The position numbers and the translations under genes are program-made. From positions 1 to 21,434 of the IMG/VR virus record IMGVR_UViG_3300028364_000168: DNA of 21,434 bases. The stretch is one strand, 5' to 3'. Origin of the DNA: a virus. The notes below the pieces were generated by a model that saw nothing but the letters and a program-made list of their open reading frames with translations, searched no databases and had not been told where the DNA came from. Positions 1,411 through 5,140 of the stretch are shown here, piece after piece (position 1 is the stretch's first letter; each line of letters starts with the position of its first letter).

Positions 1411-1623
1411 ATGCTAACAGTCCTAAAGGTGTTTGTATCAGGTCTTAGAGTTATACTAGAAACAACAGCAGCTGTATTTCTTTCTATAGTTATACTCTCA
1501 ATGTTTCTTTTCCTTACTATTGGACCCTTGGTGTTAACTATAGACCTAGAGCAACCTTGGTACCTAACAATTTACCTAGTTACTATTCTTTTATTTGGAC
1601 TATTAGAGGAGAACACATGTTAA
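1411..1623 (+). CDS. Small membrane protein, two predicted spans
   Basis: A 70-aa protein with two strongly hydrophobic segments, roughly residues 20-43 (AAVFLSIVILSMFLFLTIG and onward) and 50-64 (WYLTIYLVTILLFGLL), separated by an acidic turn (DLEQP). Ribosome binding site GGAGG lies eight bases before ATG 1411. The last seven bases overlap the polymerase start (ATGTTAA), so polymerase translation is probably coupled to it. The size and topology would suit a phage inner-membrane protein (superinfection exclusion, holin-like, or replication anchoring), but nothing in the sequence chooses among these, and early placement argues against a holin. Confidence 0.75.
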   Translation: MLTVLKVFVSGLRVILETTAAVFLSIVILSMFLFLTIGPLVLTIDLEQPWYLTIYLVTILLFGLLEENTC

Positions 1624-3043
1624 CAGTAGTCTCGGATTGCGAAACAGATGGGCTAGACCCAGACAACCTGTGGTGTGTAGTCAATAAGGAACTAGGGGGA
1701 AAGTCCTACAAAGCCTGGGACATAACCTCAGGGTATGATACCTTCATTGACTACGCAAAAACAGTAGACCGTTGGGTATTCCACAACGGCATAAGCTACG
1801 ATGGTCCCGTGATAAATAAACTACTCGGGTCCACGGTAATTGATCCCTTTAAAATCTGTGACACCTTTGTTGTCTCCCGCCTTGTGAACTATGTAGGGTA
1901 CAACGGTCACGGACTAAACGAGATTGGTATATCATTAGGGCAAGCCAAGACAGTGTTCAACGATTGGGAGAAGTACACCCCAGAGATGTTGTCCTACTGT
2001 GAAGACGACGTAGACTTAGGCACCAAGATATACAACAAGTACAAGAAGTATATCGACGATCCTGCTTGGGCTATGTCAATGGAAACTGAGCACCGTATGG
2101 CTATGTTGTGTAAGAAGATGCACGACAATGGCTTTAAGTTTAACCTACAGCTTGCTAACGAAGTACTACCTCAGATACAGGACAGACTCGACGAGCTTAG
2201 TGCAGGGATGCAACGAGCATTCCCACCTGAGCTTAAGGAGGTTCATCGCATACAGTATCGTACTAAGGCAGACGGTGAACTGTATGTCACCACAGCTAAC
2301 GCTATGGATAACTTTCCTAAGACTGTAATCGAGGGGGACGAACTGGTGTGTTTCAACTGGGTATCGTTTAACCCTGGGTCTCACCTCAACCGTATTGATA
2401 AACTATGGGAGGCAGGGTGGGACCCTACTGAGAAGTCCAAGTCACACTACAAGTTCTCTCAACGGGGTGCAGTAGGTGACAAGTGGGGTAAGAAGATACT
2501 AACTCAAGAGATGTACGACAAGAAGAAGGAAGAGTTTGACCACTATGGTTGGACAGTAACAGACGAGAACCTTGGGACACTGCCTAGTACGGCACCTCAG
2601 GGCGCTCGTGACCTTGCTGAGTGGTTGTGCCTCAATGGTAGACTCAAGCCACTAGAGGAACGTATCAGGGAGTGTGAGAGTGACGGACGTATCCGTACTA
2701 ACTTCTGGCATATTGGCGCATGGACTCACCGGATGTCCCACTCATCTCCTAACCTAGCTAACATCTCCTCACCATTTCACGGTGAAGCGGTGACTGCGGT
2801 TGACCTAGTTAAGGAAAGGTTTGACGGTCAACTACGTGCTATGTTTACAGTGGACGAGGGTAACTGGCTGGTAGGTACAGACGCTGAGTCTATCCAGCTG
2901 CGTATCCTAGCTCACTACCTAAAGAACGACGAGTACGTACAGGCTATCCTTGAAGGGAGAAAAGAAGATGGAACAGACATCCACAACGTTAACCGTGCAG
3001 CACTCGGACTTGGTCACCTTACTCGGGACCACGCCAAGACTTT
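1617..3043 (+). CDS. DNA polymerase (family A, T7 gp5 type), exon 1
   Basis: First exon of the phage replicative DNA polymerase: residues 1-475 plus two bases of codon 476. Start ATG 1617 is chosen because GAGGAG lies just upstream; the frame extends 60 bases further up but without a comparable site. The N-terminal 3'-5' proofreading domain has ExoI D7/E9 (SDCETDG), ExoII HNGISYD (56-62) and ExoIII Y127xxxD131. The polymerase domain begins in this exon with the NFWHIGAWTHRMSH segment and motif A (LVGTDAESIQLRI, catalytic D422), then the start of motif B (R470 and K474 in TRDHAKT). The T7 thioredoxin-binding insertion region appears shorter here, with about 45-50 residues before SFNPGSH. Read without splicing, the frame hits TAG at 3051-3053, inside the intron. 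Confidence 0.93.
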
Positions 3044-3323
3044 TAACACGTAGAAGTCTATAAACTCGGTGAACTCAGGGAAACTCCTAACGTAAAGACG
3101 AGGACAATCCTGAGCCAAGCTAAGTAAACAAAGCTATTGATTACTTAGAAGGTGCAACGACTATCGAAAGCACATCGAAAGATGGAAGTTAGTAGAGTAC
3201 ACCCAAGTGGGTGGAAGCGCCGAGCACTCTAAGGAGAGTGGTGATATAGTCTGCTCTGCATGGAGACATGCAGCAGTTCATAAGAGAACGGGCTGAGCCT
3301 AACGAACTCAGTTGAACATAAGG
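3044..3323 (+). ncRNA. Group I intron (IA2/td-like) in the DNA polymerase gene
   Basis: A 280-nt insertion interrupts polymerase motif B. P1: exon bases 3037-3043 (AGACUUU) pair with 3053-3059 (GAAGUCU), leaving a U.G wobble at the 5' splice site. P7: GACUAU 3159-3164 pairs with AUAGUC 3246-3251. P8: CACUCU/AGAGUG (3225-3230 with 3235-3240). Extra hairpin CACCC/GGGUG (3200-3204 with 3209-3213), as IA introns have near P7. P9: CUGCAUG-GAGA-CAUGCAG (3256-3273, GNRA loop). The 3' end GAACAUAAGG closes with the terminal G (3323). The stretch GAUAUAGUCUGCUCUGCAUG and the GAACAUAA 3' end are, from memory, almost identical to the phage T4 td intron. It contains no ORF. Splicing restores the T7-like reading KTFIYAWLLGAG. 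Confidence 0.92.
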
Positions 3324-3810
3324 TATCTACGCTTGGTTACTCGGGGCAGGAAGTGGCAAGGTCGCTCGCATCCTGGGATGTACAACACAACAGGCTAAAG
3401 GAGCGGTGGATTCTTTCGTTGAACGTACCACGGGACTTGGGAAACTTAAATCAGGACTTATCCGTAGAGATGCAGCCCGAGGTTACTTTGAAGGTTTCGA
3501 CGGTAGAAAAGTTATATGTCCCTCAGAGTACTTGATGCTTGCAGGGTACTTGCAGAACGGAGAAGCTGTAATCATGAAGAGAGCCAACTGGTTATGGGAC
3601 AAGTGGTGTACAGAAGATGGCTTGAACTTCAAGCAAGTCAATCTGGTTCACGATGAGTACCAAACAGAAGTTTGTGGGACGTATGAAGAAGCAGAAAGAG
3701 TAGGTTACCTACAGTGTAAAGCTCTTGTAGCTACAGGAGAAGAACTCGGATTGTTTTGCCCAATGTCTGGTGAGACACGAGTAGGGAGGTCTTGGCTTGA
3801 AACCCACTGA
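3324..3810 (+). CDS. DNA polymerase (family A, T7 gp5 type), exon 2
   Basis: Second exon; the first T completes the Phe476 codon, and the spliced protein is 637 aa (T7 gp5 is 704). It carries the rest of motif B/O helix (IYAWLLGAGSGK, Tyr478 equivalent to T7 Tyr526), DGRKVICPSEY matching T7 DGRKVHVRSPH, and motif C LVHDEYQ with catalytic D586 and E587. The position equivalent to T7 Tyr530 is Leu482, a departure from T7 and E. coli Pol I (both Tyr). Tyr at the T7 526 site is what T7 itself has. Without splicing this exon has no appropriate start, so production of active enzyme depends on the intron. The 3' end overlaps the endonuclease gene by 14 bases. Confidence 0.93.
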
Positions 3811-4213
3811 TAAACGGTGTAAGCATTGTAAGGAGTATAAACCAGCAACCTTCAACTTCTTCTTTAGAAAGAAATCTGCTAAGGATGGCTACACCCCAGA
3901 CTGTAAAGTCTGTCACGTTGCTAAAAACAAGGCAAACCCTAACTTCATAACTCAACAGAGAAAGTCATGGTTAAAAACTAAATACGGTATTACCCCTGAA
4001 GACTACAACAGTTTGTACAAAGAACAGGAAGGACTCTGTGGTTGTTGTGGCGAGCCTAGCAAAGAGACCTACCTCTGCGTTGATCACTGTCATTCTACTA
4101 AAGAAGTAAGAGGTTTGTTATGTCGTATGTGTAACAAGAGTATCGGAGGTCTTGGAGACACAGTTGAAGGTTTACAGAAAGCGATAGACTACTTAAAGAA
4201 ACACACACACTAA
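3797..4213 (+). CDS. Endonuclease VII-like HNH (His-Me finger) nuclease
   Basis: A 138-aa protein with the recombination endonuclease VII signature: YGITPEDYNSLYKEQEG (63-79), C81/C84, VDHCHS (95-100, catalytic His97), RGLLCRMCN (105-113) and GGLGD. An extra N-terminal CxxC pair of pairs (C8/C11, C36/C39) probably forms a second zinc knuckle. In T4 this family cleaves Holliday junctions and branched DNA; related stand-alone copies act as homing or nicking enzymes. The start is TTG 3797, seven bases after GGGAGGT; ATG is absent nearby. It overlaps the polymerase stop, and it lies just downstream of an ORF-less intron, so a role in intron mobility is possible. A PD-(D/E)XK resolvase candidate exists further on, so the resolvase job may not be its own. 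Confidence 0.85.
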   Translation: MKPTDKRCKHCKEYKPATFNFFFRKKSAKDGYTPDCKVCHVAKNKANPNFITQQRKSWLKTKYGITPEDYNSLYKEQEGLCGCCGEPSKETYLCVDHCHSTKEVRGLLCRMCNKSIGGLGDTVEGLQKAIDYLKKHTH

Positions 4214-4223
4214 GGAGAACACA

Positions 4224-4418
4224 ATGGCTTACGTTTGCACCTGCAAGGACTGTAAGAAAATGAAGAAGAAGGGATACATACTTGGCACACGTAGGTCTAC
4301 TCACTTTGCAAGCGGATGGTCTCCTGACGGCAGCGTAGGTACTTACTCAGCGTACGTAAAGTACTTTAAGTACCAGCCAGGACGTAGGCCAGATGTAAAG
4401 TTCGACAAGAACCCTTAA
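4224..4418 (+). CDS. Small Cys/Lys-rich hypothetical protein
   Basis: A 64-aa protein with a good ribosome binding site (AAGGAGAAC) before ATG 4224. The N-terminus reads MAYVCTCKDCKKMKKKGY: three cysteines in CxCxxC spacing followed by a lysine run, which could bind a metal, but no second Cys/His pair is present to complete a zinc site. The remainder is basic and aromatic (YVKYFKYQPGRRPDVKF), consistent with nucleic-acid contact. I do not recognise a family. It is followed 19 bases later by another small gene with the same kind of binding site. Confidence 0.65.
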   Translation: MAYVCTCKDCKKMKKKGYILGTRRSTHFASGWSPDGSVGTYSAYVKYFKYQPGRRPDVKFDKNP

Positions 4419-4437
4419 CACACTAAGGAGAATAACA

Positions 4438-4620
4438 ATGTCTTATAAAATGGAAGAAATAACTAGTAACGTAAGGGTTGGTCGCCCCTCCGATGGCTCG
4501 CTTAACGTAGAAATTTGGCAGGTAACACGAGGGTGGTTACCAGGAGCTGATCTAGGTCCTATGGAAGAGTTCTTTATACCCCCCAACGCTGTAGAATCTT
4601 TGTTCGAGTACTTACGATAA
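4438..4620 (+). CDS. Small hypothetical protein (60 aa)
   Basis: ATG 4438 follows AAGGAGAA. The product (MSYKMEEITSNVRVGRPSD... ending AVESLFEYLR) looks like a small mixed alpha/beta domain: two strands (NVRVGR, LNVEIWQVTRG) and a C-terminal helix. No motif or membrane segment is visible. It is the last gene before promoter 4624-4652; its stop codon is only four bases before the -35 box. The function is unknown. Confidence 0.6.
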   Translation: MSYKMEEITSNVRVGRPSDGSLNVEIWQVTRGWLPGADLGPMEEFFIPPNAVESLFEYLR

Positions 4621-4623
4621 CCC

Positions 4624-4652
4624 TTGACACAACTCTAAGACTAACTTACTAT
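4624..4652 (+). promoter_or_regulatory. Sigma70-like promoter upstream of ssb
   Basis: TTGACA (4624-4629), a 17-nt spacer and TACTAT (4647-4652), continuing TAAC. The same layout, TTGACR-N17-TACTATTA, recurs before thyX (11357) and before the 13525 gene. It sits in one of the few intergenic gaps (4621-4693) on the + strand. The transcript would begin about 30 bases before the ssb start, whose binding site is AGAGGAAT. The -10 TACTAT matches consensus at four of six positions; the -35 is perfect. Confidence 0.8.
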
Positions 4653-4693
4653 TAACGTATTGAAACAACAGACAGCTATAAGAGGAATCACAA

Positions 4694-5140
4694 ATGGCTT
4701 CTAACACCTATTACATTACCGGAACTGCACAGTGGGCTAAGGTATTTGCTCATAACAAAGACAAGAACGAAGACTTCCATGGGCCAGGTGGTGCATACGT
4801 TGTTGACCTCGTGGTTGACAAGGAAGAGCTTGATGCTTTCGTATCGACTGGCGCACGTACTACCCCTAAGGCTACTGACGAAGGTATGTCTATCAAGTTT
4901 AAACGTAAGCATACCCACCCCACTATCAGTGCCTTCGGGGGTCCACCTCAGGTAGTAGATGCAAACAAAGACGCATGGGATGGCACCCTGATTGGCAATG
5001 GTTCTACTGTTGAGCTTGCATACACAGTATATGACACTAAGATGGGCAAGGGTTGCCGCATGGAAGGTATGCGAGTGATTGAACACATCGAGTTGCCACC
5101 TATGGAAGGTGACTCTGGTGTTGCCAAGCTGCCGTTCTAA
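4694..5140 (+). CDS. Phage single-stranded DNA-binding protein
   Basis: A 148-aa protein resembling the OB-fold ssDNA-binding proteins of marine podoviruses. Family features seen: the GTAQWAKVF opening, a strand AYVVDLVVDKEEL, IKFKRKHTHP, GGPPQVVDANKDAWDG, the conserved block LIGNGSTVELAYTVYDT and a final strand MEGMRVIEHIEL. The protein ends in a bare C-terminal Phe (KLPF). T7 gp2.5 also ends in Phe, but here the preceding tail is only mildly acidic, so the usual acidic partner-binding tail is reduced. The role would be to coat single strands and coordinate helicase and polymerase. It is the first gene after a promoter, which fits a highly expressed protein. Its stop overlaps the next ATG (TAATG). 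Confidence 0.75.
   Translation: MASNTYYITGTAQWAKVFAHNKDKNEDFHGPGGAYVVDLVVDKEELDAFVSTGARTTPKATDEGMSIKFKRKHTHPTISAFGGPPQVVDANKDAWDGTLIGNGSTVELAYTVYDTKMGKGCRMEGMRVIEHIELPPMEGDSGVAKLPF

Follow-up and report, generated by a model that had tools for sequence, protein, structure and literature searches.

How does a group I intron that has no ORF of its own persist, and does the endonuclease gene next to its host gene help it to spread? This question is raised by a locus in a 21,434-nt IMG/VR record, which we call the window. How an intron and a separate endonuclease come to form a pair is unclear according to one account, which proposes endonuclease turnover as an alternative (PMC10448857). The window and its relatives bear on that hypothesis.

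The intron itself is genuine and belongs to a familiar type. Using cmscan, we found a match to RF00028 at 3034-3273 (+) with a score of 91 bits (E 1.8e-22), well above the gathering score of 50 bits, and this was the sole Rfam match above threshold across the 21,434-nt window. Read without splicing, the polymerase frame ends at a TAG (3051-3053), but joining exons 1617-3043 and 3324-3810 gives a single 637-aa frame over DHAKTF^IYAWLLGAG; the intron coordinates proposed by the first-pass annotation, 3044-3323, are exact. The fold energy is also unusual (z -3.7), with none of 100 shuffled sequences folding as well.

The features of the intron are as follows:

3044 to 3323 (+): group I intron of 280 nt, ORF-less, with a terminal G (RF00028, exact exon joint, empty sites in relatives)
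3037 to 3059 (+): P1, exon AGACUUU at 3037-3043 with guide GAAGUCU at 3053-3059 (pairing check, minimum-energy fold)
3049 to 3054 with 3326 to 3331 (+): P10, CGUAGA with exon-2 UCUACG (pairing check)
3065 to 3273 (+): catalytic core (cmscan alignment, helices kept in related introns)
3065 to 3071 and 3218 to 3224 (+): P3, core helix
3074 to 3079 and 3109 to 3114 (+): P4, core helix
3159 to 3163 and 3247 to 3251 (+): P7, core helix
3225 to 3230 and 3235 to 3240 (+): P8, core helix
3256 to 3262 and 3267 to 3273 (+): P9, core helix

P1 comprises 7 bp with a U.G pair at the splice site, and the minimum-energy fold contains it as well. P3, P4, P6a, P7, P7.2, P8, P9, P9.1, P9.2 and a 6-bp P10 are there too; the first-pass annotation had named P1, P7, P8, a P9 closed by a GNRA loop (here GAGA) and a G as the last intron base. 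P3, P8 and P9 stay intact among related introns through compensating changes. For example, P3 is CUCGGUG/CGCCGAG in the window and CCUCGUG/CGCGAGG in the related intron of L003, with both strands altered. The intron appears to carry IA2-type P7.1/P7.2 elements: P7.2 (ACCC/GGGT, with GUA just before it) is clear, and P7.1 is assigned from position only, without subgroup models. The intron most likely splices itself out of the polymerase mRNA.

The first-pass annotation had rightly placed the intron in a T7-type DNA polymerase gene, and the spliced protein matches PF00476 (family A DNA polymerase, 1.5e-28). The gene consists of two parts:

1617 to 3043 (+): DNA polymerase exon 1, encoding the 3'-5' exonuclease and a portion of the polymerase domain; its last bases belong to the Phe codon of KTF
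3324 to 3810 (+): DNA polymerase exon 2, encoding the remainder of motif B, the HDE motif and the C terminus (spliced frame)

Among named phages, the closest polymerases come from Roseobacter phages CRP-5, CRP-4 and CRP-9 and Lentibacter phage ICBM2 (44-48% identity). CRP-4, CRP-5 and ICBM2 are classified in Zobellviridae, Cobavirinae, and by sequence we regard the window polymerase as a Cobavirinae-like family A enzyme. The intron interrupts the O-helix codons of motif B (...DHAKTF^IYAWLLGAG), and ten relatives (L005-L009, L011, L012 and L014-L016) have a precise empty site there. In E. coli Pol I numbering, inferred from the motif rather than computed, the insertion site is codon 760, phase 2 (760/2). 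Published polymerase intron sites are 674, 676 and 881 (PMC3428280), so the window site differs from them.

Directly behind the polymerase gene lies the second element of the locus:

3784 to 3789 (+): Shine-Dalgarno-like GGGAGG, 7 nt upstream of the endonuclease TTG start
3797 to 4213 (+): free-standing Endonuclease VII (DHHRN) gene, 138 aa, TTG start (PF02945, 5.5e-23)

The first 14 nt of this gene coincide with the end of the polymerase gene, its TTG falling within the last polymerase codons. The conserved residues D96, H97, H99, R105 and N113 are spaced like D101, H102, R110 and N118 of F-CphI (PMC6083498), and on these grounds the product can be assigned to the DHHRN (Endo VII) family of homing endonucleases. 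Compared with its counterpart in L003, the gene has a dN of 0.043 and a dS of 0.518 (dN/dS 0.083), i.e., it is under purifying selection.

Collaborative homing has this layout, in which the intron lacks an ORF and an endonuclease gene stands by itself next to the host gene. In cyanophage S-PM2, the F-CphI gene sits approximately 67 nt behind the intron-containing psbA; F-CphI cuts intronless psbA, while the intron blocks self-cleavage, a relationship for which the term collaborative homing was introduced (PMC6083498). Our locus resembles that of S-PM2 in having a split gene with an Endo VII (DHHRN) gene directly behind it and not in the intron, and in the spacing of the D-H-H-R-N residues. It differs in its host gene, which is a DNA polymerase gene rather than psbA, and in showing both a mosaic core and what is left of an internal endonuclease.

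We consider collaborative homing in the S-PM2 psbA/F-CphI style, following endonuclease turnover, to be the best reading of the locus and a likely one. The group I intron in motif B, apparently of IA2 type, would excise itself from the polymerase mRNA. Having lost an internal P6a Endo VII of the kind that its relatives carry, it would now rely on the product of the downstream gene, a free-standing homing endonuclease of the Endo VII (DHHRN) family. When another phage with an intronless polymerase gene infects the same cell, this enzyme would nick or cleave motif B of that gene, the ensuing repair would copy the intron, exon 2 and the endonuclease gene as one unit, and the intron, lying inside the recognition site, would shield its own genome. 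The arrangement probably arose through endonuclease turnover, with the internal enzyme lost and an unrelated free-standing one gained, and a later step would have been a core exchange with an intron at a neighbouring site. The endonuclease could instead target another locus, or just its own insertion site.

The strongest competitor, which we judge unlikely but worth weighing, is that the ORF-less intron is immobile and vertically inherited, while the downstream Endo VII is an independent selfish gene that gives it no help. The relatives speak to both sides of this. Intron and endonuclease are both present in L002, whose polymerase region is identical to that of the window, and in the L003/L004/L010/L013 lineage (polymerase 94%, endonuclease 89%), and both are absent from L005, L007, L011, L012 and L015. 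Among near relatives, the intron and a complete window-type gene occur solely together, which argues against independence. The pair would thus seem to be inherited together, being found in two related lineages and jointly missing from at least five relatives. However, since the two intron-plus lineages are related, this co-occurrence represents few independent events.

Three intronless relatives favour independence. L006 has an unrelated Endo VII (32%) in the equivalent spot, and L008 and L009 retain just the last 17 endonuclease codons (L008:3330-3400, L009:3193-3260) right behind the polymerase gene, which we interpret as a degraded window-type Endo VII. As all three lack the intron, the spot behind the polymerase gene seems to receive endonuclease genes independently. 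Against this, L006 (5001-6929) is altered at the intron codon itself, with KTYIYA replacing KTFIYA. This is expected if the cleavage site lies there, and KTY is possibly a cleavage-resistant target. The apparent recent exchange of intron cores, described below, also counts against an immobile intron. Separately, the L006 polymerase domain contains an in-frame TAG (TGG GAT AGA TAG TGT), either a real lesion or a sequencing error.

We also surveyed 80 further polymerases that gave an alignment. None had a motif-B intron, and in none did the first 1 kb downstream contain an Endo VII gene. Of the two search patterns, KTFIYA[WYF] straddles the insertion site and so overlooks genes with the intron, a limitation that HDE[WY]Q[TV]E does not share.

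The relatives of the intron indicate where a lost internal enzyme would have been. Motif-B polymerase introns with an Endo VII inside occur at 762/1 in Bas93, LUZ24 and L078, at 764/1 in IME184 and, in L103, at the window's own site, 760/2. The L103 intron was found through a tail-motif search; the pattern GAACATAAGGTNATHTAYG, tried for more introns at 760/2, gave seven matches, none of them polymerase introns. LUZ24, Bas93, IME184, L103 and L078 share with the window a family A polymerase, insertion in motif B, a group I core and the Endo VII family, L103 having exactly the same insertion site, but they encode their Endo VII within the intron, in P6a, and these enzymes make up a clade of their own. 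The ORFs of Bas93 and IME184 supply, with their 3' ends, the 3' strand of P6a, and the window has a trace of such a sequence at this point:

3130 to 3150 (+): Endo VII ORF vestige in P6a, AAAGCTATTGATTACTTAGAA, reading KAIDYLE (sequence comparison)

The P6a loop and 3' strand of the window read AAAGCTATTGATTACTTAGAA, and the ORF of IME184 ends in AAAGCTATTGACTACTTGAAA (KAIDYLKV*) at the same position, where the intron-encoded Endo VII ORF of L131 has KAIEYLEGATTI. KAIDYLE is short and partly P6a helix too, but no KAIDYLE-like vestige is present in the ORF-less introns of KIL1 and L128, so an Endo VII belonging to the intron-encoded clade was probably present in the window intron at an earlier stage.

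Could the free-standing gene be that same enzyme, shifted from P6a to behind the gene? An Endo VII vestige within the intron, an Endo VII gene 473 nt downstream and KAIDYL near the end of both speak for relocation. However, intron-encoded Endo VIIs form one clade (97/99) with the free-standing enzyme outside it, and the N-terminal regions of the two kinds are unlike. The tree thus disfavours relocation, which we regard as very improbable; because the clade excludes the free-standing gene, that gene more probably replaced the internal enzyme than descended from it by relocation.

The intron is also a patchwork. The L003 intron interrupts the polymerase gene 5 nt downstream of the window's site (ACTTTTATCT^ATGC, site 762/1), with a different guide sequence and P1, and yet the two share one perfectly conserved block:

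3119 to 3213 (+): block from P6a to P7.2 identical to the L003 intron at 95/95 positions (segment and sliding identities)

Neighbouring segments are just 63-72% identical to L003 (P4-P6 29/46, P3'-P8 21/29, P7'-P9 23/32). In P4-P6 the window is nearer to KIL1 (40/46) than to L003, and in P7'-P9 it is nearer to L128 and IME184 (31/32 each). Differential constraint was considered as the cause of the identical core and is disfavoured, both because P6a-P7.2, though identical to L003, matches the other introns compared at just 43-83% per segment and because the dS of exon 1 is 0.53. In our reading, introns at adjacent sites have recently exchanged their cores.

The flanking sequence bears on what else moved. 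Between the window and L003 lineages, dS is 0.53 for exon 1, 0.32 for exon 2 and 0.52 for the endonuclease gene; as the endonuclease value equals that of exon 1, there is no sign of a recent horizontal gain of the endonuclease between these lineages. DNA identity to L003 climbs to 0.92-0.95 approaching the endonuclease gene, whereas identity to L005-L007, which are without the window-type gene, drops to 0.66-0.72 in the last stretch before it. We read this as exon 2 probably being inherited together with the endonuclease gene.

These observations permit a more specific version of collaborative homing, which we offer tentatively and think somewhat less probable than its opposite: collaborative homing was assembled by turnover, the endonuclease is the stable partner, and its tolerance of introns at several target positions would allow cores to swap between 760/2 and 762/1.

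Finally, the first-pass annotation had called the intron td-like, its 3' third being almost the same as that of the T4 td intron, and had suggested transfer between T4-like phages and a marine podovirus. The resemblance is real, but it is not specific to td. We compared the 81-nt 3' tail of the intron with other phage introns, and the nearest was the polymerase intron of Klebsiella phage IME184 (75/83, 90%), followed by the L003 intron (67/76, 88%), the KIL1 terminase intron (71/82, 87%), T4 nrdB (69/82, 84%) and T4 td (61/79, 77%). The string GATATAGTCTGCTCTGCATGG was found exactly in 65 IMG/VR stretches. Being widespread among phage introns of this type, the td resemblance is best taken as their common property and no pointer to T4. 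That a td-type intron moved from T4-like phages into the window podovirus is hardly credible: P7'-P9 is identical to T4 td at 31/32 positions and the 3' end, GAACATAA, agrees with it, but L128 and IME184 give an equal 31/32, four introns including T4 nrdB are closer over the whole tail, GATATAGTCTGCTCTGCATGG is ubiquitous, and neither the insertion site nor P4-P7.2 has any special likeness to td. Identities in the tail and by segment, together with how common that string is, led us to reject a td origin. As a comparison, the T4 td intron, of group IA2, is alike in an almost identical P7'-P9 and apparently in subgroup, and different in host gene, insertion site and core.

Nor would a IA2 intron in such a gene be new: PhiI, W31 and Pf-WMP3, all T7-like phages, have published introns of this subgroup in their DNA polymerase genes (PMC3428280). 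Those introns (I-TslI in PhiI/W31, I-PfoP3I in Pf-WMP3) differ from that of the window in lying outside motif B, at sites 881 and 674 in E. coli numbering (PMC3428280), and in having HNH endonucleases internal to the intron. What makes the window interesting is instead the pairing of intron and free-standing endonuclease, and the natural series that it forms with its relatives: an empty site, the intron with the gene, an intron 5 nt away with the same gene, a remnant of the gene, and a different gene with an altered codon. A separate endonuclease, an internal remnant and a patchwork intron together illustrate a possible origin of paired selfish elements. The first-pass annotation had noted none of these three features. 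T3 gene 5.3 is a further free-standing endonuclease gene next to a polymerase gene; its product targets the site of a known intron and is not known to belong to the Endo VII family. The T3 polymerase gene differs from that of the window in having no intron at that site. The placement of the T3 gene is mentioned in PMC10448857. The locus fits the turnover proposal of that paper, and together with its relatives it makes the hypothesis directly testable in vitro.

Several further observations were made in the relatives. Phage polymerase motif B hosts introns at four or more positions inside approximately 20 bp; another motif-B site follows codon 765, where the L110 intron has a different zinc-finger ORF inside and the L128 intron is ORF-less. 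In many relatives (L178, L179, CRP-5, ICBM2, L172-L177, L180, L187 and L205), the match to the polymerase is interrupted around residues 280-306, where the exonuclease domain gives way to the polymerase domain, and in CRP-5 and ICBM2 the polymerase is annotated as two genes. The interruption is 677 nt long in L178 and 416 nt in L179, and each has an Endo VII-like match within it or close by, which suggests a polymerase gene split by an endonuclease gene.

Other genes are interrupted as well. The primase/helicase gene of L010 (1671-4304, L003-type lineage) has an apparent intein at its Walker A motif (GVGK/QLPNTT...VTHN/T), and an HNH-type gene (4306-4836) lies between its primase/helicase and polymerase genes. 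Two IMG/VR contigs of 143 kb and 204 kb have group I introns in a RecA-like gene (L049:5000-5350 and L051:4770-5120), with a P7-P7.1 segment 90% identical over 52 nt to the window intron and a different endonuclease-like ORF. In Roseobacter phage CRP-7 (L062:1505-4123), an intron-like match and an ORF lie between the halves of an adenosylcobalamin-dependent ribonucleotide reductase gene, and the match is apparently an unannotated intron.
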